From Thermococcus indicus (GTDB lineage: Archaea > Methanobacteriota_B > Thermococci > Thermococcales > Thermococcaceae): 64,000 nucleotides of DNA. Under the pieces are notes generated by a model. The model did not search any database. It saw only the letters and a program-made list of their open reading frames with translations, and was not told where the DNA came from. Shown here in pieces: positions 1 through 41,495 of the stretch. Numbering within the stretch: position 1 is the stretch's first letter; each line of letters starts with the position of its first letter. The stretch lies in assembly GCF_006274605.1 (NCBI RefSeq), contig NZ_CP040846.1, forward strand, positions 1 to 64,000. Direction: 5' to 3'. A program made the position numbers and the translations under genes.

Positions 1-3000
1 ATGGCTGAAAGTGTTGGTGAAGTTCCAAGCGGCGAAAAGGAGTTCGCCGAATCCACCCGCAGGATAAGAGACATCATCGAATTTCCCGAGATAAATGAGG
101 AAGAGTTTGAGCGCATGCTCAAGAGCGCGAGCAGGGCCTACGGAGGGCCCCTGCCGCACAGGACGTACTCCCTCTGTCCCGAAACGAGGAGGGTCGTTCC
201 TGCCCTCGTTTGGGAGAACGATGGAAAGGTCTGGATAACCAAACGCTGTCCCGAAGGTATGATAACCGACGTTTATTACGAGAGCGTTGATCAGTACTAC
301 CGCTTCCAGAAGTGGAAGTTCGATTTCAAGCTCATGAGCACGAACGTTGAGAACACCGGAGTGAACTGCCCGTTCGACTGTGGATTGTGCGCCAGACATC
401 GCTCCCACACGAACCTGCTCAACATCGTCCTGACCAACAGGTGTAATTTGAGTTGCTGGTACTGCCTGCCAAGGGACGAGGAGGTCCTCTTCAGGATAAA
501 CGGAGAGACGGTTATAGCAAGGATGGAGGACGTTTCCAAACTCATCAACTTCGAGCACAGGGTCGAGATAGACGGCTTCTCAGGCGAGTATGGAACGCCT
601 GACTTCCTCGAGGTGCTGACCTTCAGGGACGGCAGGGCCGAGTGGACAAAGGTAACCAAATTCCTCAGAAGAAAGCATGAGGGTAAGGTCTACAGGATTA
701 GGACCCACACCGGAAGGACTCTCAGAACGACCCCGGAGCACAAGTTCCTCGTCTACTCCAACGGCGGCTTCGTCAAGAAGAGGGCAGATGAACTTTCCCC
801 CGGCGATGAACTCGTTCTGCTCTGGAACTTTGATGCCAAAGACGAAGTTGAGGAAATAGACCTCATTGAGGCCTTCAAAGAGCTGCCGGAGGAGGAAAAG
901 GGGAAAGTTTACGTAAGGGGCATTAAAGACCTTGACCTCTCCCCGCTAAAGGCCAAATACGGCGAGAGAATCTACCAGTGGAAGGGCCAGGACTCAATGC
1001 CGCTTAAGGCCTTCTACGAGCTCGGCGTTGGTGGAACCTTCAGGCTTGGAAGGGACGCCACAAGCCACGAGATTCCTTCGAGGCTAAAAATAACCCCCGA
1101 ATTCGCCAAGCTCATCGGCTACTTCATAGCGGACGGCCACTACACTGACAAAGACCTGAGAATAACCGTCGCCCACGAGGACGTTGAGAGGGAGATAATC
1201 GGCATAATCGAAAGCCTTGGCTTACCGCACAGCACTCTCGAATGGGAGGGCAAGGCGAAGCAGATAGTCATTGGCAGCAGGCTGATGAGGCTCGTCTTCA
1301 AACACGCCCTGGGAATCCCGGAGAAGGCCGAGAACAAGAGGCTTCCGAAGAACTTTCTGAGGTTGCCCTTCGATGCCAAGGTTGCCCTCCTGAGCGGGCT
1401 CTTCAACGGCGACGGCTACGTTGTGAGGGGTAAGAAACACCTCAACATAGGCTACGCGAGCGTGTCGAGGGGACTGATAAGGGACATCCTCTACCTGCTG
1501 GCCTCCCTCGGAGTGTTCGCGAGGGTCTACACGGTTCCAAAGGAGAGAATGAAAGGGGCCAACCACGACCTGTACAAGCTCTACATAGCGGGTCAGGATA
1601 TGGTCAAGCTTGTCGAGATGCTTGAGCTGAGGGAAGGCCACAGGGAGAGACTCGGCGACGTCGGGGAAAGAAAGCCCGCGAGAATAGACCGCGTGGGAGA
1701 CTTCTTCATCGACACGGTTGAAGCCATCGAGACGGAGGAATACAGCGGCTACGTCTACGACCTTGAGGTTGATGCTGAAGAGCATGCATTCATTGCGGGC
1801 GATGGAATGCTGATAAGCAACTGCTTCTTCTACGCCAAAGAAGGCCAGCCGATTTACGAGCCGACCCTTGAGCAGATAAGGATGATGCTCCGCAACGCCA
1901 AGAGGCAGCACCCGGTTGGGGCGAACGCCATCCAGCTCACCGGCGGCGAGCCAACCCTCCGCGAGGACCTCATCGAGATAATCAAAATCGCGAAGGAAGA
2001 AGGTTACGACCACGTCCAGCTCAACACCGACGGCATAAAGCTCGCCTTCGAGCCGGAGCTGGTGAAGAAGATCCGCGAGGCGGGCGTTAATACCCTCTAC
2101 ATGAGCTACGACGGAATGACGCCCCAGACCAACTGGAAGAACCACTGGGAGGTTCCACTCATCCTCGAGAACGTCAGGAAGGTCGGCGGGCCCGGCATAG
2201 TCCTCGTCCCGACCACCATCAGGAACGTCAACGACCATGAGCTCGGTGCCATAATCAACTTCGGCCTCAACCACATCGATATAATAAGGGGTGTGAACTT
2301 CCAGCCCATTTCCCTCGTCGGAAGGGTTCCTCGGAAGGAGCGCCAGCGCTTCAGGATAACGATCCCCGGGGCCATAGAGAGGATAGAGGAGCAGACCAAC
2401 GGGGCAATAGCCATGGACGACTGGTACCCGATTCCGATAGCAGGACACATAGCCAGGTTCTTTGAGGCGTTCACCGGCTCCCGCTACTACATGACCAGCC
2501 ACTACTGCTGCGGCGCTGCCACCTACGTCTTCCTCGACCGCGAGAACAAGAAGGTGGTGCCCATAAGCAGGTTCCTCGACGTCGAGGGCTTCGTCGAGTA
2601 CCTCGAGAGCAAGGCTGAGGAGATAGAGAACTGGAAGACCATGGGCAGGTTCCAGAAGCTCAAGCTCGGGGCGGAGATATTCATGAAGTTCCGCTCCTTC
2701 TACGACGACAGATACGCACCCAAGGGCATCAAGGTCCTCGACCTCATAAAGAACGCCTTCATGTACGGCAACTACGACGCCCTCGGAAAGTTCCACACTA
2801 ACGCTCTCTTCCTCGGAATGATGCATTTCATGGACGAGTACAACTACGACGTCGAGCGCGTCGAGCGCTGCGTCATCCACTACGCCATGCCGGACGGCAG
2901 GACGGTGCCCTTCTGCACCTTCAACGTGATTCCCGAGCTCTACAGGGACAAGGTGCAGGCCCAGTTCAGCTACACCTGGGAGGAGTGGAAGAAACTCCAC

Positions 3001-3129
3001 CCGGACTGGGAGTACCACAGGGACAAATACATCAGGACGAAGGAGTTCGTTGAGCGGATGAAGAACAGCGAGCTTTACAGGAAGACCTACATCGACATAG
3101 AGGACTACTTTGGCCTGAACACGAGGTGA
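1..3129 (+). CDS. tes: Tetraether-synthase-type radical SAM protein (COG1964), interrupted by an intein
   Basis: The 1042-residue precursor carries an intein at residues 155-607; splicing would leave a 589-residue enzyme. The N-terminal extein has CPFDCGLC (residues 123-130) and then CNLSC-W-Y, completed by Cys608 to give the CX3CX2C radical SAM motif; a TGGEP motif follows. This arrangement matches the MJ0619/Tes family, known to join two archaeol lipids into caldarchaeol-type tetraethers, which fits a Thermococcales membrane. The substrate is inferred from family likeness, not shown by the sequence. The start ATG is the first base of the window, so upstream signals and any longer N-terminus are unseen. 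A small gene follows after 10 nt and is probably cotranscribed. Related COG1964 radical SAM enzymes act on other substrates, so Tes is likely but not certain. Confidence 0.8.
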   Translation: MAESVGEVPSGEKEFAESTRRIRDIIEFPEINEEEFERMLKSASRAYGGPLPHRTYSLCPETRRVVPALVWENDGKVWITKRCPEGMITDVYYESVDQYYRFQKWKFDFKLMSTNVENTGVNCPFDCGLCARHRSHTNLLNIVLTNRCNLSCWYCLPRDEEVLFRINGETVIARMEDVSKLINFEHRVEIDGFSGEYGTPDFLEVLTFRDGRAEWTKVTKFLRRKHEGKVYRIRTHTGRTLRTTPEHKFLVYSNGGFVKKRADELSPGDELVLLWNFDAKDEVEEIDLIEAFKELPEEEKGKVYVRGIKDLDLSPLKAKYGERIYQWKGQDSMPLKAFYELGVGGTFRLGRDATSHEIPSRLKITPEFAKLIGYFIADGHYTDKDLRITVAHEDVEREIIGIIESLGLPHSTLEWEGKAKQIVIGSRLMRLVFKHALGIPEKAENKRLPKNFLRLPFDAKVALLSGLFNGDGYVVRGKKHLNIGYASVSRGLIRDILYLLASLGVFARVYTVPKERMKGANHDLYKLYIAGQDMVKLVEMLELREGHRERLGDVGERKPARIDRVGDFFIDTVEAIETEEYSGYVYDLEVDAEEHAFIAGDGMLISNCFFYAKEGQPIYEPTLEQIRMMLRNAKRQHPVGANAIQLTGGEPTLREDLIEIIKIAKEEGYDHVQLNTDGIKLAFEPELVKKIREAGVNTLYMSYDGMTPQTNWKNHWEVPLILENVRKVGGPGIVLVPTTIRNVNDHELGAIINFGLNHIDIIRGVNFQPISLVGRVPRKERQRFRITIPGAIERIEEQTNGAIAMDDWYPIPIAGHIARFFEAFTGSRYYMTSHYCCGAATYVFLDRENKKVVPISRFLDVEGFVEYLESKAEEIENWKTMGRFQKLKLGAEIFMKFRSFYDDRYAPKGIKVLDLIKNAFMYGNYDALGKFHTNALFLGMMHFMDEYNYDVERVERCVIHYAMPDGRTVPFCTFNVIPELYRDKVQAQFSYTWEEWKKLHPDWEYHRDKYIRTKEFVERMKNSELYRKTYIDIEDYFGLNTR
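463..1821 (+). other. Intein with LAGLIDADG homing endonuclease domain
   Basis: An in-frame 453-residue intein. It begins with Cys155 (CLPRDEEVLF, block A), has the TTPEH block-B motif at residues 243-247, two LAGLIDADG-type motifs (LIGYFIADG at 371-379, LLSGLFNGDG at 463-472), and ends LISN before Cys608. The penultimate residue is Ser rather than the usual His. The insertion point lies inside the radical SAM cysteine motif: the host supplies the first two cysteines, and the third cysteine of the mature enzyme is the C+1 residue. The endonuclease domain appears intact, so homing may still be possible. Confidence 0.93.
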
Positions 3130-30873: not shown

Positions 30874-32103
30874 TTATGCCAGCACCCCTTCTGAAGTCTC
30901 ATCCTCCCAGAGCAGGGCAAAGCCCACGCTCAGAAGCACCATCGTGACGACAGGTGCTAAAAACCACCACCATCTGCCCGCGTAGAGGGCATTCTGGTTG
31001 AGGCCCTCCAGTATGAACGAACCCCAGTTGTCGCTCGGAATCATGTTGAAAAACCCGAGTATCGCCACGAGCGCGACCACCTTGGGGAACAGGAGGCTGA
31101 AGTGGCTCAGGGCGTAGGGGATTACAGGCTTCAGGATATGCCTCCTGAGGATGTGGAGATCACCCGCTCCGAGCGCCCTCGCCGCGGCAATGTGCTCCTT
31201 GACCTTCTCCTGAACGACGAAGCCCCTCACGGCGCTCCCGAACTTGCCCGCGAGCAGGAGGGCGAGTATCAGTGACAGGGTTTCCGTTTTTATTTCCCGG
31301 GTCATCGCTATGCCCGTCGTTGAGAATGAAAATATCATCAGCATCGCGAGGGGAAGGACGGGGAGAGCTCCGAGAGAGTTCAGCAGGCTCTCGAGAAGAA
31401 TCGCGGGCCGGCTCCGATAGTAGCCGGCGAAGAGGCCGAGGAGCAGGCCGATGATCATCACAAGGAGGGAGACCTCAAGCGACACGAGTAACGTGCTTCT
31501 ACCGGCCAGGACGAAGCCCACCCAGAGGTCGCGGCCGTAGGAGTCTGTACCGAGGAGACCGTAGGAATCGCCAAAGACCGTGACGGCAACGGGGGAAGTG
31601 GATTCGACCTCGAGGGTGTACCTTCCCTCCAGAACCTCGCCGCCGTACCCCATGAAGAGGAGCTGGGTGGGGGTGAAGAGGGGCCTGCTCTCCGGGCCGT
31701 AGCCGAGGGACTCGGCAAACTCGTAAGCCCCCGCGGCGAGTGCAGGGTTGGAGTTGATGCTCGTCCTCCCATCCACCTCCACCGGACCGAGGACCACGGA
31801 AAGGCCGTCGGGGCGGTGAATCACGAGCCTAACCGTCGAATTGCCCTCAAGCATTATATTTCCTGGAACGATGCCCTCAACCGCAAAGGTAATTGAAAAG
31901 TTCGTTCCAGCCGATTCAAGGGTTCTGAAGCCCGAAGGGAGCCAGATGGGCCGGGCGTTCTTGGGGTAGTCGTTCCAGTAGGGCAGGTAGTTCCAGTTGG
32001 CGGCCTTTTCCGGGGGCACGAGGAGACCCACTGGGACGACCGCGAGGAGCATCACCAGCAGTATAAGCGTGATTCCGGCTTTTTCCTTCCGGTCAAGCCT
32101 CAA
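30874..32103 (-). CDS. DppC-type ABC transporter permease with large extracytoplasmic insertion
   Basis: A permease of about 409 residues of the peptide/nickel class. After the first membrane helix an outside segment of about 150 residues precedes the transport core; the coupling loop EHIAAARALGAGDLHILRRHILKP is clear. The TTG start at 32103 follows GGAGGTG; a GTG at 32112 is possible. It overlaps dppB-like 32093-33091 and forms its heterodimer. No substrate-binding protein or OppD/F ATPase is next to it; the nearest ATPase upstream is of the ABC-2 type. Codirectional with, and 32 nt behind, the peptide locus transporter genes. Confidence 0.85.
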   Translation of the reverse strand: MRLDRKEKAGITLILLVMLLAVVPVGLLVPPEKAANWNYLPYWNDYPKNARPIWLPSGFRTLESAGTNFSITFAVEGIVPGNIMLEGNSTVRLVIHRPDGLSVVLGPVEVDGRTSINSNPALAAGAYEFAESLGYGPESRPLFTPTQLLFMGYGGEVLEGRYTLEVESTSPVAVTVFGDSYGLLGTDSYGRDLWVGFVLAGRSTLLVSLEVSLLVMIIGLLLGLFAGYYRSRPAILLESLLNSLGALPVLPLAMLMIFSFSTTGIAMTREIKTETLSLILALLLAGKFGSAVRGFVVQEKVKEHIAAARALGAGDLHILRRHILKPVIPYALSHFSLLFPKVVALVAILGFFNMIPSDNWGSFILEGLNQNALYAGRWWWFLAPVVTMVLLSVGFALLWEDETSEGVLA

Positions 32104-33091
32104 CGCCGCCACCTCCAGGGGTTAGGAGTTCTGACAGAACCGTAACGGCCAGGAGGACGAAGAAGTTCACCACCATGAAGACCGCTATGGGGTAGAAGAA
32201 GACGTCCGGGTCGAGGGTGTAGAGGTCGCCCGATATGCGGAAGCCCCACTGGAGCATCTTGCCGAGGCCGAAGAGGCCGAAGAAGGCATCGACCACAAGG
32301 GCGAGCGTCGAGACCTCGACGAAGTGCTGGAAGAGGAAGCCAAGGAAGGAGGGCATCACGGCGCGGAGGACGTGCCTCTCGATCCTGCGCTCCGGCAGCC
32401 CCATCGCCCTCTTGGCGCGCACGTACTCCTTCCCGAACTCGTCTCGGAGGAGTATCACCAGGGCCTCGACGAACTCCCAGAGGGCGACGAGGACTATGGA
32501 AACCAGCGGGAAGGCCATGTAGGCGAGGGTCCTGGTGGGGGAGGTCGATGTGCCGAGGCCGTTTATCAGGTAGTTGGGAAGCGCGCTCATTATGATGAGG
32601 AGCGAGAAGAGCGCCGCCACCGCCCAGACGGGGAGGCCGTTGAAGACTCTGGCGAGAAAGCGGACGGTGGAGCGGAGGCGCCTTTTCCTGAGGGCGAGCT
32701 TCGCCAGCGGGAAGCCGATGAGGATTATCGTGATCTCAGCCAGGGGGATTAGCACCAGCGTTCTGGCCACCATGAGCTTTCTGGGTATCGGGTAATCGTA
32801 GTCCGGCCTGAAGAGGGCGTGGTGGAGCGTGTAGAGCCCCGCATGGAGGGGGTTCATCACGAGGGTTGGGTAGTCCTTTGGGGCCACGAAGTTCATGTAG
32901 TAGTCGTAGGGGTCCATTCCCATGGAACTCGCGTTGGCCTCTATCACGGTCCTCTCCGCCGAAGGAAGAAGGCTAAACTCCATGTCCGCCCGGTAGAACT
33001 GGTAATCCTTTATCCCGATGCCAGAGATGAGCGCCACTAGGAGGATGAGGAGGAGGTAGTTGAGGAGGGTGCGAGTAACTGCCCGACCCAC
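32093..33091 (-). CDS. DppB-type ABC transporter permease
   Basis: A 332-residue permease with six membrane helices; the first is followed by a long outside loop (to about residue 110). The coupling motif is EYVRAKRAMGLPERRIERHVLRAVMP. It pairs with the following DppC-like subunit. I chose GTG 33091 because GAGGTGA lies just upstream; the frame extends 15 nt further to a TTG. It starts 32 nt after the ABC-2 ATPase stop, so it may belong to the same transcript as the ranthipeptide-type locus and might serve peptide uptake or export there, which is inference from position. Confidence 0.85.
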   Translation of the reverse strand: MGRAVTRTLLNYLLLILLVALISGIGIKDYQFYRADMEFSLLPSAERTVIEANASSMGMDPYDYYMNFVAPKDYPTLVMNPLHAGLYTLHHALFRPDYDYPIPRKLMVARTLVLIPLAEITIILIGFPLAKLALRKRRLRSTVRFLARVFNGLPVWAVAALFSLLIIMSALPNYLINGLGTSTSPTRTLAYMAFPLVSIVLVALWEFVEALVILLRDEFGKEYVRAKRAMGLPERRIERHVLRAVMPSFLGFLFQHFVEVSTLALVVDAFFGLFGLGKMLQWGFRISGDLYTLDPDVFFYPIAVFMVVNFFVLLAVTVLSELLTPGGGGVEA

Positions 33092-33123
33092 AGAATCACC
33101 TCGCAAAAATATTGAAACAAAGG

Positions 33124-34041
33124 CTACCCGACGAGCTTGAGGAATATTTCCTCCAGGCTGGGTTCTTTCACCTGCATTGTCAGAATCTTCGCCCCCTGAT
33201 TCGCTACAAAGTCATGAAGCTCCTCCCTTATGTCCTCTGGCGAAACCACCCGGTACTTATTCCCACCGAGCGGACTCACACTCCACTCCACCGAACTCCA
33301 GTCCACGGGCTTGTTAGTCTCAATGACGATGGTATAGCCAGCCTTCCTTAAGAACTCCCGCCTGATGTTCTCAATGCTGTCCTCCAACCGGAGTTTACCC
33401 TTAACAATCACTCCAACCGTGTCGCAAACCTCTTCCACGTGCGCGAGGATGTGGCTGGAGAAGAACACCGTTTTTCCAGCCTTCCTCTGCTCTCTAATAA
33501 TCTCCTTGAACTCCGCTATTCCTCGCGGATCCAAACCAGTCATCGGCTCGTCGAGGATGAGAAGCTCCGGGTCGTTGATGAGCGCCTGGGCAAGCAGGAG
33601 GCGCTGCCTCATTCCCTTCGAGAACTTGCCAACCTTCCTCCTCCTGGCTTCCTTCAAACCAACCAGGTCGAGAAGTTCGCTAATCCGCCTCTCCTTCTCA
33701 GCCCTCGGAATCCCGAAAGCGTCAGCGATAACCTCGAGAGTCTGCTCGGGAGTCAGAAAATCCCACAAAGTAGCATGCTCGGGCATGTAACCAATCCTCG
33801 CCTTGGCTTTGACGAGCTTACCCTCGTCAAACTTGCCGTCCCTGAAGACTTCCTCGCCAAACAATTCAATTCTCCCATCCTGAGGGAAGATGAGGCCGAG
33901 GGTGCTCAGGATTGTCGTGCTCTTCCCGGCTCCATTCGGACCGAGGAAGCCATAAACTTGACCAGGCTTAACCTCAAGGTTAAGACCGTCCAAAGCCCTA
34001 ACGTCCTTATAAACCTTAACAAGGTTCTCAACCCTAAGCAT
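33124..34041 (-). CDS. ABC-2 type transporter ATP-binding protein
   Basis: A 305-residue ATPase. Walker A GPNGAGKST, Q-loop region YMPEHATLWDFLTPEQ, signature FSKGMRQRLLLAQAL, Walker B LLILDEPMTGLD and switch His in FFSSHILAH are all present; a C-terminal about 80-residue domain follows, as in CcmA/bacitracin-type exporters. The ATG 34041 follows GAGGTGA and lies just after the upstream permease stop. It presumably energises the four ABC-2-type membrane proteins encoded at 34047-37728, exporting the peptide product or conferring self-protection. Confidence 0.92.
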   Translation of the reverse strand: MLRVENLVKVYKDVRALDGLNLEVKPGQVYGFLGPNGAGKSTTILSTLGLIFPQDGRIELFGEEVFRDGKFDEGKLVKAKARIGYMPEHATLWDFLTPEQTLEVIADAFGIPRAEKERRISELLDLVGLKEARRRKVGKFSKGMRQRLLLAQALINDPELLILDEPMTGLDPRGIAEFKEIIREQRKAGKTVFFSSHILAHVEEVCDTVGVIVKGKLRLEDSIENIRREFLRKAGYTIVIETNKPVDWSSVEWSVSPLGGNKYRVVSPEDIREELHDFVANQGAKILTMQVKEPSLEEIFLKLVG

Positions 34042-34046
34042 GACCA

Positions 34047-34967
34047 TCACCTCAAATCCATCCTTCCGAACCTGAAGAGGGCCAACCCGAGGTAGACAGG
34101 GATAAGTCCAACTATCAAGGCAGTCTGGGCGGAATTGTCGGCTATGGCTCGCCTAACCCCAAGGTACTCGACGGTGTACGTGCCGTCGTCGTTGAATGTG
34201 GTTCTGTCTATGTCAGTGAATATGTCAAGCATGAGTACCTGGGGGGCGTAGAAGAGGTATCTGAGGTGGTACTCTCTGTAAAGCTCGTTCAGGCGCTCGC
34301 GATAGGCCCTCAACTCGTCTTTCGAGAGCTTATCAAAGTCATTCCAGCCCTTAATTCCGAACTCTTCCTTGGCTTTGTCCTCCGCAAAGCCGTCCACCAC
34401 CTGGGGCATGACGAGACCGGTAACGAAGAACAGGACCAGGGCCAGCCCCAGGGCGGTGTTTGAGGAGCGGACAAAGGTTGAAATCAGCAGACCGAGAGCT
34501 AAAAGCTGGAGCATCGCAAACAGGATCAGCAGGTTGGAGAGAACCAGGTCCCCAACGAGGGAAGTGGTGAGGGAGAGGCCGTAGTACTTCGTTATCGCGA
34601 AGGAGAGCAGGGTGGCAAAGGCCATCGCCACGACTATGCTGAGCGCCTGGCCGAGGAACTTGCCGAGCAGGTATGAAATCCTCCCCAATGGCTTGCTGAG
34701 GGCCACCCTCACCGTTCCGTTCTCAAGGTCATTATTAACTGAAGTCGCCCCGGCCATGAGGGCGTAGACGCCGATGAAGAGGAACGCGCTGACCGCTATG
34801 TAACCTATGACGCTCGTGACGAGCACTTCCTGCGGGTTTGTGGCGCCTTCGAGGTTGTCCTTCACTTCCCTGAAGGCCATGGCGTAGATTAGCAGAATCA
34901 GAACGAGTATCAGCCAGAACTTCTTCGTCCTCAGACTTTTCTTCAGCTCCAGCTCAAACCCCCACAT
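34047..34967 (-). CDS. ABC-2 type permease
   Basis: A 306-residue membrane protein of the ABC-2 family with about six helices; the conserved stretch ENGTVRVALSKPLGRISYLLGKF follows TM2. A soluble loop (about residues 210-275) lies outside or in the cytoplasm. The end DLR-stop (GACCTGAGGTGA) doubles as the ribosome site of the next gene, a device repeated in this operon. It would form the channel with the ATPase encoded downstream. Confidence 0.88.
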   Translation of the reverse strand: MWGFELELKKSLRTKKFWLILVLILLIYAMAFREVKDNLEGATNPQEVLVTSVIGYIAVSAFLFIGVYALMAGATSVNNDLENGTVRVALSKPLGRISYLLGKFLGQALSIVVAMAFATLLSFAITKYYGLSLTTSLVGDLVLSNLLILFAMLQLLALGLLISTFVRSSNTALGLALVLFFVTGLVMPQVVDGFAEDKAKEEFGIKGWNDFDKLSKDELRAYRERLNELYREYHLRYLFYAPQVLMLDIFTDIDRTTFNDDGTYTVEYLGVRRAIADNSAQTALIVGLIPVYLGLALFRFGRMDLR

Positions 34968-34971
34968 TCTA

Positions 34972-36516
34972 TCACCTCAGGTCGGCTTTTCTAAACCTGA
35001 GCCACGAGATGGCTAAGTAGACGAGCGTCGGAACGACCAGCATCGCCAGGTTGCCGGGATAGTTTAGAATCTCCGAAAGGGACTTCGGTGGAAGGTTCCT
35101 CCTCGGAGAGACTGCCATCGCAAGCACGGTGTACTGCAGGAAAGGACTCGGCACGAGGAGGGAGTTTTTGGCCAGAGCATCAACGAAGGAACCCCCTGCC
35201 GAATTTGAAGCTGCGATGACGGCGATTGGAACGGCGAAACCCAGGAGAAAGGCGAAAATCAAAGAGAGGAAAAGCGCTTTCCTGCCCCTCATGAAGGCTG
35301 AAAGCAGGTAGCCGAGGGCCAGATACTGGACGAGCGAGAGGAGGAGCAGGGAACCAAAGGTAAGGCCGAGTTCAAGGGTTTTACTCATGGGAGCACCCAA
35401 GTGGAGGGCGTAGGCAACGAGGAAGACAACGTAGAGGGCAGTTCCAATGAACACCGCAAAAACGTCGCTCAGGAGCGTCCCGAGGAAGAAGTCCCTCCTT
35501 CTCAACGGCTTGCTCAGCAGAACCCTAACGGTGCCGTTCTCGATAGCCGAGCCTATCGAGACTGCCCCGAGAGGCAGAACAACAAAGGGCAAGAATACGC
35601 CATTCAGAGCTGAAATTAAGGCTCTTAAAAGACCGGAAAGGCCATAGCTGGCGTAATAGTCCCCGAGCGTGTCCAGGTTAAGGAAGGCCGTTAGGGCGGC
35701 CAGGGCGACGAAAGCTATGAAGCGCCTGCTCTGAAGGCTTAACCCAAGGAAAACACCATAGAGCCCGCGGGGGGAGAAGGAAAAACCGGGCACCGGTAGG
35801 GGTTCGGAGCTTCTAAGCTCTTTCCGCCTGAACAGCTCCATCCCGATTAGCGACAGGCCAACGGAAAGGGCCAAAAGCTCCCCAACAGCTCCGTGGGAGA
35901 TGAAAACGTCCTCTCCAATGGAAACGGCCCTCTCAAGGTAGACCGTTGGAACGAAAGAGTAGTCAGATTTTCCGAGGAGCAGGAGCGCAATAAAGGCCCC
36001 GAGCCCGAGAAAAACCCCCGAATCGCGGGAAGTCGTAAGGGGGATTAGGAGCAGGGCGATTCCGAGGACGCCGACCAGCGAGAGCGAAAGGGCGAGGGAG
36101 CCGACGAGGTAGTCCCCAACCGCGAAACCGTGAGCCAGCATCGCGAGCGCTCCCGAGAGTGCAACTCCAAGGGCAGAAATTAGGGCGAGCTTCAGCCCCT
36201 CAGAGGCCCAGTCGAGGAAGTAGCGCCTCCTCGTGAGGGGCTTTGAGAGGAGTAATACCACGTTGCCCCGCTCGAAGTCCGAGCCGAAGCGCGAGAGGAG
36301 CAGGATTAGGATTAGGGGAACCAGCAGGAACTTGAGAAAGTTGGGGAGCCACTTTGTGAGCAGGTCGGCGGTTATTAGGTAGCCGAGCCTTTCAGGAGGG
36401 ACGTTCGGGTAGTGAATAGCAAATCTGTGAACGTCTATCTCGACCGCTATGGCCGGGAAGAGGGAGATGAGGAATAGAACGGACGAAGATCCTGCCTGTT
36501 GGATTTCAAGTCGCAT
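34972..36516 (-). CDS. Large ABC-2 type permease, apparent tandem duplication
   Basis: A protein of about 514 residues with some 12 membrane helices. Two halves each carry the ABC-2 signature: ERGNVVLLLSKPLTRRRYF near residue 90 and ENGTVRVLLSKPLRRRDFF near residue 330, so it is an internal duplication or a fused dimer of permease units. I chose ATG 36516 behind GGTGAG. It ends DLR-stop with an embedded ribosome site for the next gene. It lies between two single-unit permeases, suggesting a hetero-oligomeric channel. Confidence 0.87.
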   Translation of the reverse strand: MRLEIQQAGSSSVLFLISLFPAIAVEIDVHRFAIHYPNVPPERLGYLITADLLTKWLPNFLKFLLVPLILILLLSRFGSDFERGNVVLLLSKPLTRRRYFLDWASEGLKLALISALGVALSGALAMLAHGFAVGDYLVGSLALSLSLVGVLGIALLLIPLTTSRDSGVFLGLGAFIALLLLGKSDYSFVPTVYLERAVSIGEDVFISHGAVGELLALSVGLSLIGMELFRRKELRSSEPLPVPGFSFSPRGLYGVFLGLSLQSRRFIAFVALAALTAFLNLDTLGDYYASYGLSGLLRALISALNGVFLPFVVLPLGAVSIGSAIENGTVRVLLSKPLRRRDFFLGTLLSDVFAVFIGTALYVVFLVAYALHLGAPMSKTLELGLTFGSLLLLSLVQYLALGYLLSAFMRGRKALFLSLIFAFLLGFAVPIAVIAASNSAGGSFVDALAKNSLLVPSPFLQYTVLAMAVSPRRNLPPKSLSEILNYPGNLAMLVVPTLVYLAISWLRFRKADLR

Positions 36517-36521
36517 TTTTC

Positions 36522-37178
36522 TCACCGCAAATCCTTCTTGTCGAACACTGCAACCGAGATGCTCACGTAAATCCCAACTGAGGCAATTGCCGTCAGCGCG
36601 TCTCCGTAGGACAGCGTTCCGTTCAGGAAAGCACCACTGAGGGAAAGCACAGGCAGGAGGAGCTTCTCGGCGAGGTTCGGGGAGGAAAACTTAACCATTG
36701 TCCCAATGAACGCGAAGACCACTCCAACGGACCAGATAACCCTTAGCTCCCTGCCGAGGAAAATAGCAGGCAGAAGGGAGAATGCAGAAACGCTGAGAAG
36801 GAAGAGAATTAGAACTATGGCAGAGAGCTCAACGGCGTGGGCGTTTGGGTAGTAGTGCCACTCGATGGGCATAGCGATTACTGGGAAGAGCACTGAGAGC
36901 AGGGCAACTGCCCCAAAGTGCTGGAGAAGTGCTGAGAACCTTCTAATGGGCTTCGACAGGACGAGGGGCTCTCTCGGAAGCTCAGTAGAGTGAAACGCTA
37001 TCAGAATTCCCCCGAAAAGGGCCATGAAGAAGGTGTAGTTGCCCACTACCATCTCGGGTGTCAGAACTTTGTCTGGGTCGCTGAAGAAGCTCACAGTGTA
37101 GAGAACCGAGATTAATAGTACGCCATAGAGGGTCTTCGAGTGCAGATACTTCCTGAATTCTAAGCCAATCAGCCACAT
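36522..37178 (-). CDS. ABC-2 type permease subunit
   Basis: A 218-residue protein with about six membrane helices, starting MWLIGLEFRKYLHSKTLYGV. The REPLVLSKPIRRFSALLQHF segment is the ABC-2 SKP-R motif seen in its neighbours. It ends KKDLR-stop. The ATG follows GGAGGGCTTGA, which is the end of the preceding gene. Probably part of the same transporter complex as the adjacent permeases. Confidence 0.85.
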   Translation of the reverse strand: MWLIGLEFRKYLHSKTLYGVLLISVLYTVSFFSDPDKVLTPEMVVGNYTFFMALFGGILIAFHSTELPREPLVLSKPIRRFSALLQHFGAVALLSVLFPVIAMPIEWHYYPNAHAVELSAIVLILFLLSVSAFSLLPAIFLGRELRVIWSVGVVFAFIGTMVKFSSPNLAEKLLLPVLSLSGAFLNGTLSYGDALTAIASVGIYVSISVAVFDKKDLR

Positions 37179-37179
37179 T

Positions 37180-37728
37180 TCAAGCCCTCCATTCGCGTTT
37201 TTTCATCACGACAAAGTAGAGCGAGGAGTAAATGCTAATTGAAATCAGCTGATAGAAAACACCGCGGTAGGAGGAAAGGAGTGGATTCCAGAGTGAGAGG
37301 AGTGGCGAGAGTCTTAGGAGTGAGACAAAAGTAAGAATGAATAGAATCGGCAACACCAGGGAGAGTTTTGGGCCGAGACCCAAGCTTCCAATGAAAAGAC
37401 CCGCGGAAACTCCGGAAACCACTACGAGAACGGCGCTCAAAAAGTGTTTGGAAAGGGCAAAGGGAACAAGAGGGATCAGAAGGGCTATCAGGTATGAAAT
37501 CATCATGGCGAGGGAATATTCAACCCTCGATACAGGATTCTTAAGTTCAAAAACGGTGTTTTCGAAGGCCATCGAACAGAGTGGGAAAGCAAGAATGAAG
37601 ATGAACAGCGAGTACGTCATGGCGGGTGTTGTGGAGGGGGAGAATGAATAGTAAACAAGTCCAAGTACAAAGAGGATAGATGTGATATTTGCCAATCGTT
37701 TAAGGTACAGACGAACAATCCAGTACAT
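37180..37728 (-). CDS. ABC-2-like permease subunit
   Basis: A 182-residue protein with about five membrane helices, starting MYWIVRLYLKRLANITSIL; FELKNPVSRVEYSLAMM is a weak form of the ABC-2 motif. The ATG 37728 follows GGAGGTTTAAGT. The open frame extends upstream to 37938, but that extension overlaps the 54-residue Cys-rich peptide gene in another frame, has no ribosome site at its start and lacks the typical N-terminus, so I reject it. The gene is the first transporter gene after the peptides. Confidence 0.82.
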   Translation of the reverse strand: MYWIVRLYLKRLANITSILFVLGLVYYSFSPSTTPAMTYSLFIFILAFPLCSMAFENTVFELKNPVSRVEYSLAMMISYLIALLIPLVPFALSKHFLSAVLVVVSGVSAGLFIGSLGLGPKLSLVLPILFILTFVSLLRLSPLLSLWNPLLSSYRGVFYQLISISIYSSLYFVVMKKREWRA

Positions 37729-37739
37729 ACTTAAACCTC

Positions 37740-37789
37740 CTAACTGATTTAAAAAATTCAGAAAATTAGAAAAAATAAAATTTGCGAAC
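37740..37789 (-). terminator. T-rich attenuator-like stretch after the peptide genes
   Basis: Directly after the stop of the 54-residue peptide the transcript runs through several T tracts (plus-strand A runs at about 37751-37780, up to six long). Archaeal RNA polymerase terminates at such runs, so part of the transcripts may end here, giving more precursor peptide than transporter mRNA. Confidence 0.45.
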
Positions 37790-37954
37790 TCAGTCCCACC
37801 AGTGGCAGTGCTGGTCGGTTTCACAGGCATCACTCTTCCAACACAAGTCAATGTAGCAGTGATCAGATCTACAGGAGTCCTTACTGCAGAGATCAAGCCC
37901 AGCACATGCAGGAAGAACGTCCCCTGGTCCTCGTCCATTTAGCTTCTTAAACAT
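37790..37954 (-). CDS. Cys/Asp-alternating RiPP precursor peptide 1 (ranthipeptide-like)
   Basis: A 54-residue peptide beginning MFKKLNGRGPGDVLP. From residue 17 on, Cys and Asp alternate: C17/D21, C23/D26, C28/D31, C33/D36, C38/D42, C44/D47, C50/D54, with Asp the last residue. Ranthipeptides such as freyrasin have CX3D units in which a radical SAM enzyme links Cys sulfur to the Asp beta carbon, so seven thioethers could form. The ATG follows GGAGGTGAATGTA. The first six residues are identical to those of the neighbouring peptide 2, marking a shared leader. It lies 14 nt after peptide 2 and is followed by a T-rich stretch. Cross-linking is inferred, not shown. Confidence 0.85.
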   Translation of the reverse strand: MFKKLNGRGPGDVLPACAGLDLCSKDSCRSDHCYIDLCWKSDACETDQHCHWWD

Positions 37955-37968
37955 TACATTCACCTCCG

Positions 37969-38124
37969 TCAGTCCTTTCCACAGGTGTCTCTCCAGATGC
38001 AGATATCTATGTCACAACCAGTATCCTCCACACATTTGTCGTGGAGGACACATATCCCATCTAAAACCACAATACAGATGTCCGGCTCCACCGGGTTATC
38101 GCCGGCGTTCAGCTTCTTAAACAC
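37969..38124 (-). CDS. Cys/Asp-alternating RiPP precursor peptide 2 (ranthipeptide-like)
   Basis: A 51-residue peptide beginning MFKKLNAGDNPVEPDI. Cys and Asp again alternate: C17/D22, C25/D29, C31/D34, C37/D40, C42/D46, C48/D51, with Asp as the final residue; six Cys in about 35 residues resembles the SCIFF class. It starts with GTG overlapping the maturase stop (the GTG is at 38122-38124, the maturase stop TAA at 38117-38119), and its ribosome site GGAGGTGAT is inside the maturase gene. The first Cys sits at residue 17, as in peptide 1, so leader length is conserved. Confidence 0.87.
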   Translation of the reverse strand: MFKKLNAGDNPVEPDICIVVLDGICVLHDKCVEDTGCDIDICIWRDTCGKD

Positions 38125-39568
38125 CAGCTATCACCTCCTTCAGTTTTTGGGTTTTGGCCTCATCGGACTCCTCGGCCCTCACCCCTCTCTGGGGTGAGCG
38201 TGAGAAGACCTCATTCAACCAATCCTCGTCAAGATTCGAGTAGAGCCAAGAACCCCACTTCACAAGAGCAAACATGTAGGCGCAGTGGAACTCGTCGGGG
38301 AGGAATATATCGCCGTTGTAGTAGTGGTTGTTGTAAATACAACCACCGCCACAGTAGGCCCTTATCGGGCAGTTCGAACAGTTGGGCCGCCTATCTACGG
38401 TATGGCGCAGAATCTTCTGAATGAACCCGTTCTCCCACCTGAAATCATCAACGTGACCAATCACGAATTCTTCCATCCCAACGAACCTGTGGCAAGGATA
38501 TATCCTCCCGTCCGCCGAAACTCCAAAGTAGCTCCTGGCAACGCCGCATGGATAATGTCGGTAGGTGCCAGAGTAAATCATGTGAACCATCTCACGGAGC
38601 TTCGTGTAAACGATTCCCTTCTCCTTGTAGTGTTCAAGCTCGTCCTTCGCTATCTTCTCCAGGGCGGACTCAATGAGTTTGGCATGCTCCTTGGTTAGCG
38701 GTGTGCTGGTGGTGGCGGGCTCAAGATGAATACTCCTAAAACCAAAATCAACGAAAAACCGATAAATCTCATAGTACCTGCCGATCTGTTCGGGCAGAAT
38801 CGTCGCGCGGACGCTGACCTTAACGCCGCGCTCAAGCATCTTTCGAGCGTTCTTGGCCACAACATCAAACGTGGGGAATCCACCCCTCAATGGCCTGTTG
38901 TGGTTTTGAACCTCCCTGGGACCATCAAAGCTCAAAGTTACCGTGAAGTTGTTCTCGAGGAAAAAGTCAATGACATTATCTGTGACGAGGTAACCGTTGG
39001 TTGTTATGCTGAAGGTAACAACTTTATCGTGTTCCTTAGCTCTCTCTTTTGCATATTGAACCAGCTCCCGAATCAGCGGAAAGTTCAACAAAGGTTCGCC
39101 ACCGAAAAACTGAAGGTTAACAGCTTTCTTCCCTTCCCTCATTAGCAGATCAATGGCCTTTTTACCAACTTCAGGACTCATTCTGGTGTTGGGAGTATGA
39201 TACGTTCCACCATCACCGTAACAGTAAACGCACGCAAAGTTGCAGTCCTCCATGACGTTAAGGGAGAGGGAGGAGATCTTAGATTTCATAATTCCAAGAT
39301 AGGGTTTTACAGGAAGTTTAGCTTCAAAGAACACCCGGCGCAGGCTCTCATCGGATTTAATTTCATCTATCAAAGAATCCCAGTCAGATTCGGAGTACTC
39401 CATTACAAAACGCTCTCGGGCATCACTCCAGCCCAGTTCTGCCACAAACCTGCAGAAGTCGTAGGTTTTCTTATCGACTTCAAAGAGGGTTCCTGTGGAT
39501 GAATGCAAGACAAAATACTTGCCACCAACGTGGAAGGTGTGCAATTCCGGTCTCACGTTACCAGACAT
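38117..39568 (-). CDS. Radical SAM/SPASM peptide maturase (SCIFF/ranthipeptide-type)
   Basis: A 483-residue enzyme. Residues about 8-80 (LHTFHVGGKYFVLHSSTGTL) resemble the leader-binding domain at the start of SCIFF maturases. The radical SAM cluster motif is CNFACVYC (C109, C113, C116), followed by QFFGGEPLLN. The C-terminus has a SPASM pattern: CGVARSYFGVSADGRIYPC, then CSNCPIRAYCGGGC, then a last Cys in EFHCAYM, enough for two auxiliary 4Fe-4S clusters. It would install thioether links in the two peptides encoded directly downstream. A strong TATA box is upstream. Sactipeptide-type chemistry is the alternative, but the Cys-Asp pattern of the substrates favours ranthipeptide formation. Confidence 0.9.
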   Translation of the reverse strand: MSGNVRPELHTFHVGGKYFVLHSSTGTLFEVDKKTYDFCRFVAELGWSDARERFVMEYSESDWDSLIDEIKSDESLRRVFFEAKLPVKPYLGIMKSKISSLSLNVMEDCNFACVYCYGDGGTYHTPNTRMSPEVGKKAIDLLMREGKKAVNLQFFGGEPLLNFPLIRELVQYAKERAKEHDKVVTFSITTNGYLVTDNVIDFFLENNFTVTLSFDGPREVQNHNRPLRGGFPTFDVVAKNARKMLERGVKVSVRATILPEQIGRYYEIYRFFVDFGFRSIHLEPATTSTPLTKEHAKLIESALEKIAKDELEHYKEKGIVYTKLREMVHMIYSGTYRHYPCGVARSYFGVSADGRIYPCHRFVGMEEFVIGHVDDFRWENGFIQKILRHTVDRRPNCSNCPIRAYCGGGCIYNNHYYNGDIFLPDEFHCAYMFALVKWGSWLYSNLDEDWLNEVFSRSPQRGVRAEESDEAKTQKLKEVIAGV

Positions 39569-39605: not shown

Positions 39606-39619
39606 GCATATAAGATTTT
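39606..39619 (-). promoter_or_regulatory. Promoter of the peptide maturase operon
   Basis: The minus strand reads GAAAATCTTATATGC, a good BRE plus TATA box. The predicted start is near 39588, 20 nt before the maturase ATG. It separates the maturase-peptide transcript from the ABC genes upstream. Confidence 0.65.
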
Positions 39620-39645
39620 CTATTCATTCAAAAAACAATAGAGTA

Positions 39646-40644
39646 TTAAAATTTTTCTACCCCATCAAAACGATCAAAAATAAGCAAAAACACGTCCTCA
39701 AGTGATAGGTCCTCCACCTTAATTTGAAGGGTACCTTTCGAGGAGAGAAACCTCACGAACTCATCGACCTCGTTGAGCCTGAGATAGGCCCTAACGTGGG
39801 TGTAGTCCCCTTTGGTAAGACACTGAACCATAGACCATCGAGCACATTCAACTCTCCCCTTAACAATCGCGCTGACCTTTTTATCAACCGGAGCCCTAAG
39901 CTTCCTGCTTATCTCCTCGGGCTTTCCCTCCAGGATAGGCCTCTTGTTGAAGAGCAGAACCCTGTCGCTCAGCTTCTCCGCCTCCCCAAGGTCGTGGGTG
40001 GTGAGGATAACCGTTGTCCCAAAGTCACGGACTAAGCTTAATATTGCATCATGTATCTCGCTCTTGGTTATCACATCGAGAAAAACCGTCGGCTCGTCGA
40101 GTATGAGGTATCTGGGCTGTACCACCAGGGCGGAGGCGATGTAAACCTTCTGCTTCATTCCGGCCGAGAGCTTCTGGTACCACTCGTCCCTCTTCTCCCA
40201 CAGGTTCAGCAGCTTGAGCGCGTACTCTATGCGCTCCCCTATCTCACCCTCCGGGACCTTCCACAGCCTCGCGATGAACTGGAGGTTTCGTTGAACGCTC
40301 AGACGCCACTGGAATATGCCCCACATGTCCCTCTCGCCGGTGAAAACGGTGAACATCTTGCTCGCAACTTTGCCGTGCTCCCTAAAGCTGTCGTGGCCGT
40401 CGATGAGCAGTTTTCCAGAACTCGGCTCGAGGAGGCCGTTGGCGATTTTACAGAGGGTTGTCTTTCCCGCGCCGTTGGGGCCGAGGAGGCCGAATATCTC
40501 CCCCTCCCTCACCCGGAAGCTCAGGTCTATGAGGGCCGGAATCTCCTCCCTGGGCTTTCCGAGAAAATCACGAAGGCTACCCAGATCGAAGAAGCCCCTG
40601 AAAGGGGGCGGATAGTACTTGGTGAGATGCTCTGCTTCTATCAT
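39646..40644 (-). CDS. ABC transporter ATP-binding protein
   Basis: A 332-residue ATPase of the ABC-2/DrrA-like kind, with an extended N-terminus (FRGFFDLGSLRDFLGKPREE) typical of ATPases paired with ABC-2 permeases of the 'ABC-type uncharacterised' class. Walker A GPNGAGKTT, signature LSAGMKQKVYIASAL, Walker B YLILDEPTVFLD, switch His in LTTHDLGEAE. A C-terminal about 90-residue domain follows. It is coupled to the permease gene upstream (9-nt gap) and ends 77 nt before the peptide maturase start. It may export the modified peptides or provide immunity; it could also be unrelated. Confidence 0.9.
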   Translation of the reverse strand: MIEAEHLTKYYPPPFRGFFDLGSLRDFLGKPREEIPALIDLSFRVREGEIFGLLGPNGAGKTTLCKIANGLLEPSSGKLLIDGHDSFREHGKVASKMFTVFTGERDMWGIFQWRLSVQRNLQFIARLWKVPEGEIGERIEYALKLLNLWEKRDEWYQKLSAGMKQKVYIASALVVQPRYLILDEPTVFLDVITKSEIHDAILSLVRDFGTTVILTTHDLGEAEKLSDRVLLFNKRPILEGKPEEISRKLRAPVDKKVSAIVKGRVECARWSMVQCLTKGDYTHVRAYLRLNEVDEFVRFLSSKGTLQIKVEDLSLEDVFLLIFDRFDGVEKF

Positions 40645-40653
40645 CTAACCACC

Positions 40654-41451
40654 TCACACGTGCCCGAGGGTTCCCAGCTGCATTGCCTTTCCAACGCCCC
40701 ACCGAAAGGTCGCGATTCCAACCAAGAGCATAATGCCAGTGGTCAGGGCAAGGTTCACGAAGCTGGGCCAGATCTGAGATACTGAATAGCCCCCACCCAT
40801 CGTCAGCCTGGCCATCTCAAGAATATACCTCTCGGGGTGTATCTTGGAAATAGGCTGGAGCCACCAGGGGAGCGCGTCGGGCGGGAAGTAGAGACCGCTC
40901 ACGAGCTGGGAGGTGAGGTTGAGAAACCAGTTTATCGGGTCCTGCCTGGCCTTGGTCGCCGCCCGAAAGCCGGCGGAGAAAAGTTCAAGGGCGAAGGTGA
41001 GGGTGAAGCCCGCGAGGATAACGAGCAGGGCACCGAGGTTGATGTGTATGACCAGACCGTAGAAGAGAACGAAGACCCCCGTTATCAGGCCCATTATCAT
41101 AAGGCTCCAGACGACGTTCCAGGCGTTTATTCCCACGAAGATCGCCACCATTCCGGCGGGGGAGGCGTAGAGCATCGGGAAGCTCCGCCCAATCAGGAGC
41201 TTGGAAAGACTACCGCGGGGAAGGAATATTATGTTGTGCACGATGAAGCCTATCAGAAAGAACTGGAGGAAGGAGTCAGTCCCGTACTGCTCGATGTTCG
41301 CGTTTATAGTCACCAGGCTGGCGAATATCCCCATCACCGCAACCTGGATTAGAAGGCCTATCAGATAGCTGACCACGTCCCAGCGGTAGCTGAAAAAGAC
41401 CTCCCTCTGAACCTTGAAGAACTCGCGGACTATTCTAACACCGTCCTTCAT
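40654..41451 (-). CDS. ABC-2 type permease
   Basis: A 265-residue protein with six predicted membrane helices, starting MKDGVRIVREFFKVQREV; the C-terminal part has GLYFPPDALPWWLQPISKIHPERYILEMAR, typical of ABC-2 exporters. It pairs with the ATPase encoded 9 nt downstream. TATA-like TTCTTTTAAACC at about 41478-41490 puts the transcript start close to 41460, so the mRNA is almost leaderless; GTG 41457 is an alternative start. Confidence 0.87.
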   Translation of the reverse strand: MKDGVRIVREFFKVQREVFFSYRWDVVSYLIGLLIQVAVMGIFASLVTINANIEQYGTDSFLQFFLIGFIVHNIIFLPRGSLSKLLIGRSFPMLYASPAGMVAIFVGINAWNVVWSLMIMGLITGVFVLFYGLVIHINLGALLVILAGFTLTFALELFSAGFRAATKARQDPINWFLNLTSQLVSGLYFPPDALPWWLQPISKIHPERYILEMARLTMGGGYSVSQIWPSFVNLALTTGIMLLVGIATFRWGVGKAMQLGTLGHV

Positions 41452-41495
41452 TCCCACCGAAAAAAGTCAGAAGGGAGGTTTAAAAGAATATCGGC

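Follow-up and report, generated by a model that had tools for sequence, protein, structure and literature searches.

What do two very small genes directly behind a radical SAM/SPASM maturase of Thermococcus encode, and what becomes of their products? The reading preferred here, at a probability of roughly 0.75, is that they encode precursors of peptides with thioethers from Cys to a non-alpha carbon of Asp or Glu, forming a new archaeal ranthipeptide-like lineage with variable spacing. The cross-links, their regiochemistry, export, and the role of the products are all inferred, and no chemistry has been measured; an initial sequence-only reading of the locus had likewise called the cross-links and the role inferred, and they remain so. 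The window, i.e., the whole stretch of DNA analyzed, is 64 kb long, and its central features are as follows.

38117..39568, minus strand: radical SAM/SPASM peptide maturase, class A (Pfam Radical_SAM and SPASM; 483 aa)
37969..38124, minus strand: precursor peptide 1 (51 aa, GTG start; six Cys, each in a CX2-4D unit)
37790..37954, minus strand: precursor peptide 2 (54 aa, ATG start; seven Cys, each in a CX2-3D unit)
38130..38138, minus strand: ribosome-binding site GGAGGTGAT of precursor 1, identified by sequence and kept in orthologs
37960..37967, minus strand: ribosome-binding site GGAGGTGA of precursor 2, identified by sequence
39606..39620, minus strand: probable BRE/TATA-like core promoter GAAAATCTTATATGC upstream of the maturase (inferred)
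37748..37786, minus strand: T-rich stretch just after precursor 2, a possible archaeal terminator (inferred, sequence only)

The precursor genes directly follow the maturase gene and are described as translationally coupled to it; precursor 1 begins with a GTG and shares 8 nt with the maturase gene at the stop of the latter, and ahead of each gene lies a ribosome-binding site of the GGAGGTGA type. Precursor 2 may alternatively start at an in-frame GTG located three codons before its ATG. A GAAAA-N2-TTATAA-like block is kept upstream of class-A maturases, and an Rfam search of the locus gave no matches. Both peptides start with [M]FKKLN and terminate in Asp, and residue 17 is the first Cys in each. 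The core of the 54-mer, CAGLDLCSKDSCRSDHCYIDLCWKSDACETDQHCHWWD, consists of seven strictly alternating C/D units in which X is 3, 2, 2, 2, 3, 2, and 3. In the core of the 51-mer, where the order of C and D is CDCDCDCDDCDCD, the spacings are 4, 3, 2, 2, 3, and 2, and the fourth Cys is followed by D-I-D (CDID), which adds one extra Asp. The sequence-only reading had claimed a maturase with two small Cys/Asp precursor genes behind it, a shared MFKKLN start, a first Cys at residue 17, a terminal Asp, and 7 and 6 Cys/Asp pairs, all of which held, the genes being supported by their ORFs, starts, and ribosome-binding sites. Its claim of strict alternation held only in part, for the 54-mer but not the 51-mer.

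The placement of Asp after Cys exceeds chance. Among 518 ORFs of 25–130 aa in the window, just these two have at least four CX2-4D units, and all 13 such ORFs in 277 kb of related loci adjoin class-A maturases. A permutation test with Cys positions fixed gave p = 0.0012 and 0.00015 for the window peptides. Pooled over 15 less redundant precursors, Asp falls at +3 from Cys in 41/96 cases and at +4 in 37/92, and is rare beyond. Within this pool, 81 of the 96 Cys lie in a CX2-4D unit, as opposed to 36.1 ± 4.3 (maximum 53) in 2000 shuffles that also kept Cys positions fixed. Some of the pooled precursors are related, so the statistic is not a strict test on independent samples. Where Asp is missing, Glu often takes its place, as in CNVE, CAFGE, and CTSE.

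These data bear on the possibility that the products are metal carriers, in which Cys and further residues are the targets of the maturase and Asp contributes to metal binding or solubility. The habitat is anaerobic and metal-rich, and cores in which 17% of residues are Cys and 19% are Asp could bind metal. However, the sharp +3/+4 placement of Asp, with Glu substituting at that same place, fits pairwise linkage better, and no metal-transport or regulator gene was recognized in the cluster. The metal-carrier explanation is thus regarded as very improbable.

The pairing of genes is conserved. A search of 94 Thermococcales genomes recovered nine class-A maturases (68–100% identity), seven in the genus of the window and two in other genera, and immediately downstream of each of the nine lie one to three small genes of this design, for a total of 18 class-A precursors plus one orphan. 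The sequence-only reading would have been refuted by a lack of homologous peptide genes beside orthologous maturases, which is not what was found. First precursors of the same design as precursor 1 occur in 8 other genomes. In a partial scan of genome contigs, the sole close match was Thermococcus sp. JdFR-02, which does not show absence outside Thermococcales. Within the genus, the leaders of the first precursors are 93–100% identical, and the cores have little in common except C and D. The core shared by genomes G070 and G039 differs by 25 synonymous and 3 non-synonymous codon changes, and that shared by G054 and G017 by 9 and 1, respectively. Because these near-identical cores differ mostly synonymously, selection acts at the protein level. 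A conserved leader, a variable core, and a maturase alongside satisfy the gene-level criterion for a RiPP cluster; that the enzyme makes a mature product from the precursor is inferred.

The peptides could instead be unmodified disulfide-rich or metal-binding mini-proteins, with the maturase acting elsewhere. Small Cys-rich peptides and intracellular disulfides are found in hyperthermophiles, and G039 retains a precursor after losing its maturase. Against this stand the adjacency in 9/9 loci, the start/stop overlap, the RRE-like domain of the maturase, and the much stronger conservation of leaders than of cores, which leave the mini-protein explanation almost no room. That the maturase acts on the adjacent precursors is very likely.

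The maturase comprises an N-terminal RRE-like domain, a CX3CX2C cluster motif (C109, C113, and C116), and a 7-Cys SPASM domain (C341, C359, C397, C400, C406, C410, and C429). All of these cysteines are invariant across a 51-sequence alignment, and the enzyme meets the criteria for a SPASM radical SAM enzyme. The top NCBIfam models are PapB (NF047865, 282 bits), nif11 (280), QhpD (TIGR03906, 265), and SCIFF (TIGR03974, 254). None of their cut-offs is reached (340 for PapB, 453 for QhpD, and 425 for SCIFF), and the PapB cut-off is exceeded in 0/115 genomes of the phylum. The AlphaFold2 model (pLDDT 89.1) finds CteB (5why/5wgg) as its best Foldseek match (TM 0.77–0.89), and the likeness spans the whole maturase, including the RRE part. 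The enzyme is thus related to QhpD, PapB, and SCIFF enzymes as a member of a broad superfamily, supporting the earlier claim of ranthipeptide-type kin. Filing it under PapB, QhpD, SCIFF, or CefB is ruled out by the curated cut-offs.

A further alternative is that the links are sactionine (S-to-alpha-carbon) bonds to Asp or neighboring residues, which would make the products archaeal sactipeptides. The two kinds of SPASM maturase have the same fold and precursor logic, sequence does not reveal regiochemistry, and the sactipeptide maturase SkfB (6efn) is also among the PDB sequence relatives. In contrast, the enzyme scores far higher against the models for PapB, QhpD, and SCIFF, families in which the members studied form beta or gamma links, than against the listed models for sactipeptide maturases (RumMC, 84.7 bits), and sactipeptides do not use a fixed Asp at +3/+4 as acceptor. 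Sactionine linkage is therefore considered unlikely, and non-alpha thioethers remain the preferred reading.

Two paralogous Thermococcales maturase families, classes B and C, also adjoin short Cys/acid peptides. The class-B maturase of the same genome (G000:C1:149062-150447; L002, L033) lies beside MEFEVVNPGDKTKIWIGPCGVLDQGGCPFPEDWECWWPEDICYGPEVTSV, a 50-aa peptide of CX3D/E units whose start overlaps the maturase end and which is followed by two BPD-type permeases. In class C, CX4D peptides of ~31–34 aa and an MFS transporter adjoin the maturase. One class-C precursor, MRAMVKTRPKMEDDMLCSRIGDQWCEASDKAEII, sits between radical SAM and MFS genes on a Thermococcus nautili plasmid (L211:7449-7760) and is absent from the PLSDB gene table; such precursors are easily overlooked. 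Beyond Thermococcales, ...TCPDDYICPWVDICTIDFDPCAFIDICGIDYH follows a PapB-like maturase in an archaeon of the same class (G113), and similar peptides are encoded by two MAGs of Candidatus Eisenbacteria (L068:4984-7884 and L085:4813-7842), where they alternate C and D and follow the maturase ORF. This ORF has a ~330-aa N-terminal extension that is isoprenoid synthase-like by eye, a putative fusion.

Other peptide systems were observed in passing. A putative viral IMG/VR contig (L131:4705-4854) encodes a freyrasin-family precursor (NF037957, 44.8 bits; cut-off 30) adjoining a PapB-family maturase gene that a frameshift apparently divides. The genome of the window also encodes a pair of CefA precursors with Cys at every fifth position (G000:C1 ~426.1–428.4 kb; L004:466-2706), one of which scores 58.6 bits (cut-off 30); genes for a Clo7bot/TIGR04463-like radical SAM maturase and an ABC ATPase lie downstream of the pair. 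Elsewhere in the same genome (~1773.4–1775.1 kb of G000:C1; L003:1026-2703), a sactipeptide-like 50-aa peptide with Cys at every fourth residue, CYAICGTICVGGCTAAC, immediately precedes a CcpM-like radical SAM maturase. At window positions 1–3129, a radical SAM protein, tetraether-lipid-synthase-type by eye only, has an apparent intein inside its CX3CX2C region (CWYC|LPRDEEV...MLISN|CFFY).

In maximum-likelihood trees, the class-A, -B, and -C enzymes of Thermococcales form a single clade (100/96 and 100/99) outside the QhpD, SCIFF, and partial PapB-family anchors. No maturase above the PapB cut-off was available as an anchor in a Bacillota sample of 398 genomes; therefore, the C-terminal part of the frameshifted PapB-family gene of L131 was used. 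This anchor joins QhpD (97/90) and not the Thermococcales clade, although its long branch makes the placement tentative.

The maturase is flanked by the following transporter and membrane genes.

40654..41457, minus strand: ABC-2 type permease (ABC1), candidate peptide exporter; weak ABC2_membrane match, present in 8/9 class-A loci
39646..40644, minus strand: ABC transporter ATPase (ABC1), upstream of the maturase; near the maturase in most other loci
37180..37728, minus strand: small locus-variable membrane protein, candidate for immunity or transport (inferred)
36522..37178, minus strand: locus-variable membrane protein; SkfF-like match of 12 bits, not significant
34972..36525, minus strand: ABC-2 family permease, downstream, kept in several loci
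34047..34967, minus strand: ABC-2 family permease, in 7/9 loci and in some genomes without the maturase
33124..34050, minus strand: ABC transporter ATPase (ABC2)
30874..33106, minus strand: two binding-protein-dependent-type permease subunits (32093-33106 and 30874-32112; Pfam BPD_transp_1), system membership uncertain

The ABC1 pair resembles a RiPP-associated exporter because it lies upstream in most class-A loci and is also found ahead of unrelated radical-SAM peptide loci of G018 and G063. The ABC transporter genes are not dedicated to the maturase system; that assignment was rejected since ABC1 stands beside other radical-SAM loci and ABC2 occurs in genomes lacking the maturase. BPD-type permeases likewise follow the class-B maturase. 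No family could be assigned to the small membrane protein at 37180..37728, which is not common to the other loci, and the operon shows no evident leader peptidase gene. As a separate observation, the system behind the ABC1 genes in G018 (L217:8314-10106) and G063 (L219:5849-7146) is a different radical-SAM peptide system with short CC-ending peptides, and the former locus also encodes a discrete 88-aa RRE-like protein.

The distribution of class-A maturases is patchy (9/94 Thermococcales genomes). The maturases of G016 and G060 are sisters (98/98), and the first two precursors of G016 match those of G054 and G017, while its third matches the second of G060. In G039 the maturase is gone and the orphan precursor is kept, and in G014 and G018 the first 21 and 43 codons, respectively, of the upstream permease remain at the same chromosomal site. 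On the basis of this precursor exchange between backgrounds and of these remnants, the locus is an island subject to gain, loss, and reshuffling. Which membrane gene follows the precursors tracks the core type: G016, G017, and G054 have lipoproteins, G070 and G039 a 409/428-aa protein (54% identical), and G085 and G093 a 295/296-aa protein (57% identical). The 409-aa type also persists without precursors in G014. Such co-variation may reflect cognate immunity or transport, but simple linkage could explain it as well.

The same chemistry could yield an intercellular signal, a possibility that remains. Multiple small peptides per strain lie beside exporter genes, and a quorum-sensing setting has been described for one bacterial ranthipeptide (PMC11002830). 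However, no receptor gene or regulator was recognized in the cluster, and the hypervariability of the cores, their exchange (G016/G060), and the co-varying membrane proteins look more like antagonism and immunity. Antagonism is favored because of the hypervariable and swapped cores, the several peptides per locus, the patchy distribution, the exporter genes, and the co-varying membrane proteins; it is nonetheless an inference whose odds are slightly less than even, and neither signaling nor metal capture is excluded as a role.

In the pathway proposed for non-alpha thioether formation, the conserved leader ([MV]FKKLN...PxEP) would dock on the N-terminal RRE-like domain of the maturase. A radical generated from SAM would then allow each core Cys sulfur to be joined to a non-alpha carbon of an Asp, sometimes a Glu, three or four residues on. 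Each link would cost two hydrogens and, by PapB and QhpD precedent, would be S-to-Cbeta (Asp) or S-to-Cgamma (Glu), giving small thioether rings, seven in the 54-mer and six in the 51-mer. The leader is presumably removed and the ringed core exported via a neighboring ABC transporter. The predicted targets are closely related archaea, and the locus-variable membrane proteins would provide immunity.

A bolder version, whose chance is clearly less than even, is that independently branching archaeal Cys-Asp cyclases of hyperthermophiles make hypervariable multi-ring antagonistic peptides, with cores swapped between strains together with cognate membrane immunity proteins. If true, archaea would have an analog of bacteriocin typing, and no fewer than three paralogous substrate classes would exist in Thermococcales. 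Confirmation of the main reading would bring archaea into the range of Cys-Asp thioether chemistry, provide cyclases that withstand heat and naturally tolerate CX2D/CX3D, along with cores diversified in nature, and make peptide-mediated conflict testable in Thermococcus, a genus with genetic tools for some of its species.

Within the literature searched, from which subscription papers were mostly missing, Cys-Asp linking has been demonstrated so far only in bacteria, no peptide cross-linked by a radical SAM enzyme turned up for any hyperthermophilic archaeon, and nothing was found on Thermococcales or these precursors. Archaeal ranthipeptide and sactipeptide clusters have been predicted by genome-mining surveys, and the characterized archaeal RiPPs given there are lanthipeptides (PMC12144867); the text of that survey mentions neither Thermococcales nor these precursors. 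The present loci supply named gene pairs for an archaeal ranthipeptide function that surveys have so far merely predicted.

Freyrasin (PapA/PapB, Paenibacillus polymyxa; NF037957/NF047865) likewise combines several Cys-Asp units, a short peptide, and a radical SAM/SPASM maturase alongside. The leader of its IMG/VR family member, MFKAIN, resembles MFKKLN of Thermococcus in being short with a conserved Asn; a leader Asn has been proposed to be required for PapA recognition (PMC9413430), and Asn6 of FKKLN occurs in most class-A leaders. In contrast to the uniform CX3D of freyrasin, the Thermococcus peptides have mainly CX2D and CX3D, their host is archaeal, and loci usually hold two or three precursors. 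The maturase falls below the PapB cut-off and in a clade apart from the PapB-family anchor, and the window peptides do not match the freyrasin-like precursor model (NF037957, cut-off 30 bits); against the CefA precursor model (cut-off 30 bits), class-A peptides reach just 14–19 bits.

The sequence-only claim that variable CX2-4D spacing would be unusual is qualified by two precedents. PapB links CX3D and tolerates CX0D to CX6D in vitro (PMC9413430), and QhpD forms methylene thioethers in QhpC at Cys7-Glu16, Cys27-Asp33, and Cys41-Asp49, i.e., across CX8E, CX5D, and CX7D (PMC8172795). The QhpD system has a homologous maturase, and the Cys-to-Asp/Glu thioethers of variable spacing inferred for Thermococcus would be a further common feature. 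However, its substrate is the gamma subunit of quinohemoprotein amine dehydrogenase, encoded in an amine dehydrogenase operon; the Thermococcus locus has no such operon, its maturase adjoins ABC transporter genes and not qhpA/qhpC, and the enzyme belongs to a separate clade. The SCIFF systems (CteA/CteB thermocellin; Tte1186) share the end-to-end fold of RRE, radical SAM, and SPASM domains. Their cores are conserved, with six Cys in 45 residues and Cys-Thr links, whereas those of Thermococcus are hypervariable and built of Cys and Asp.
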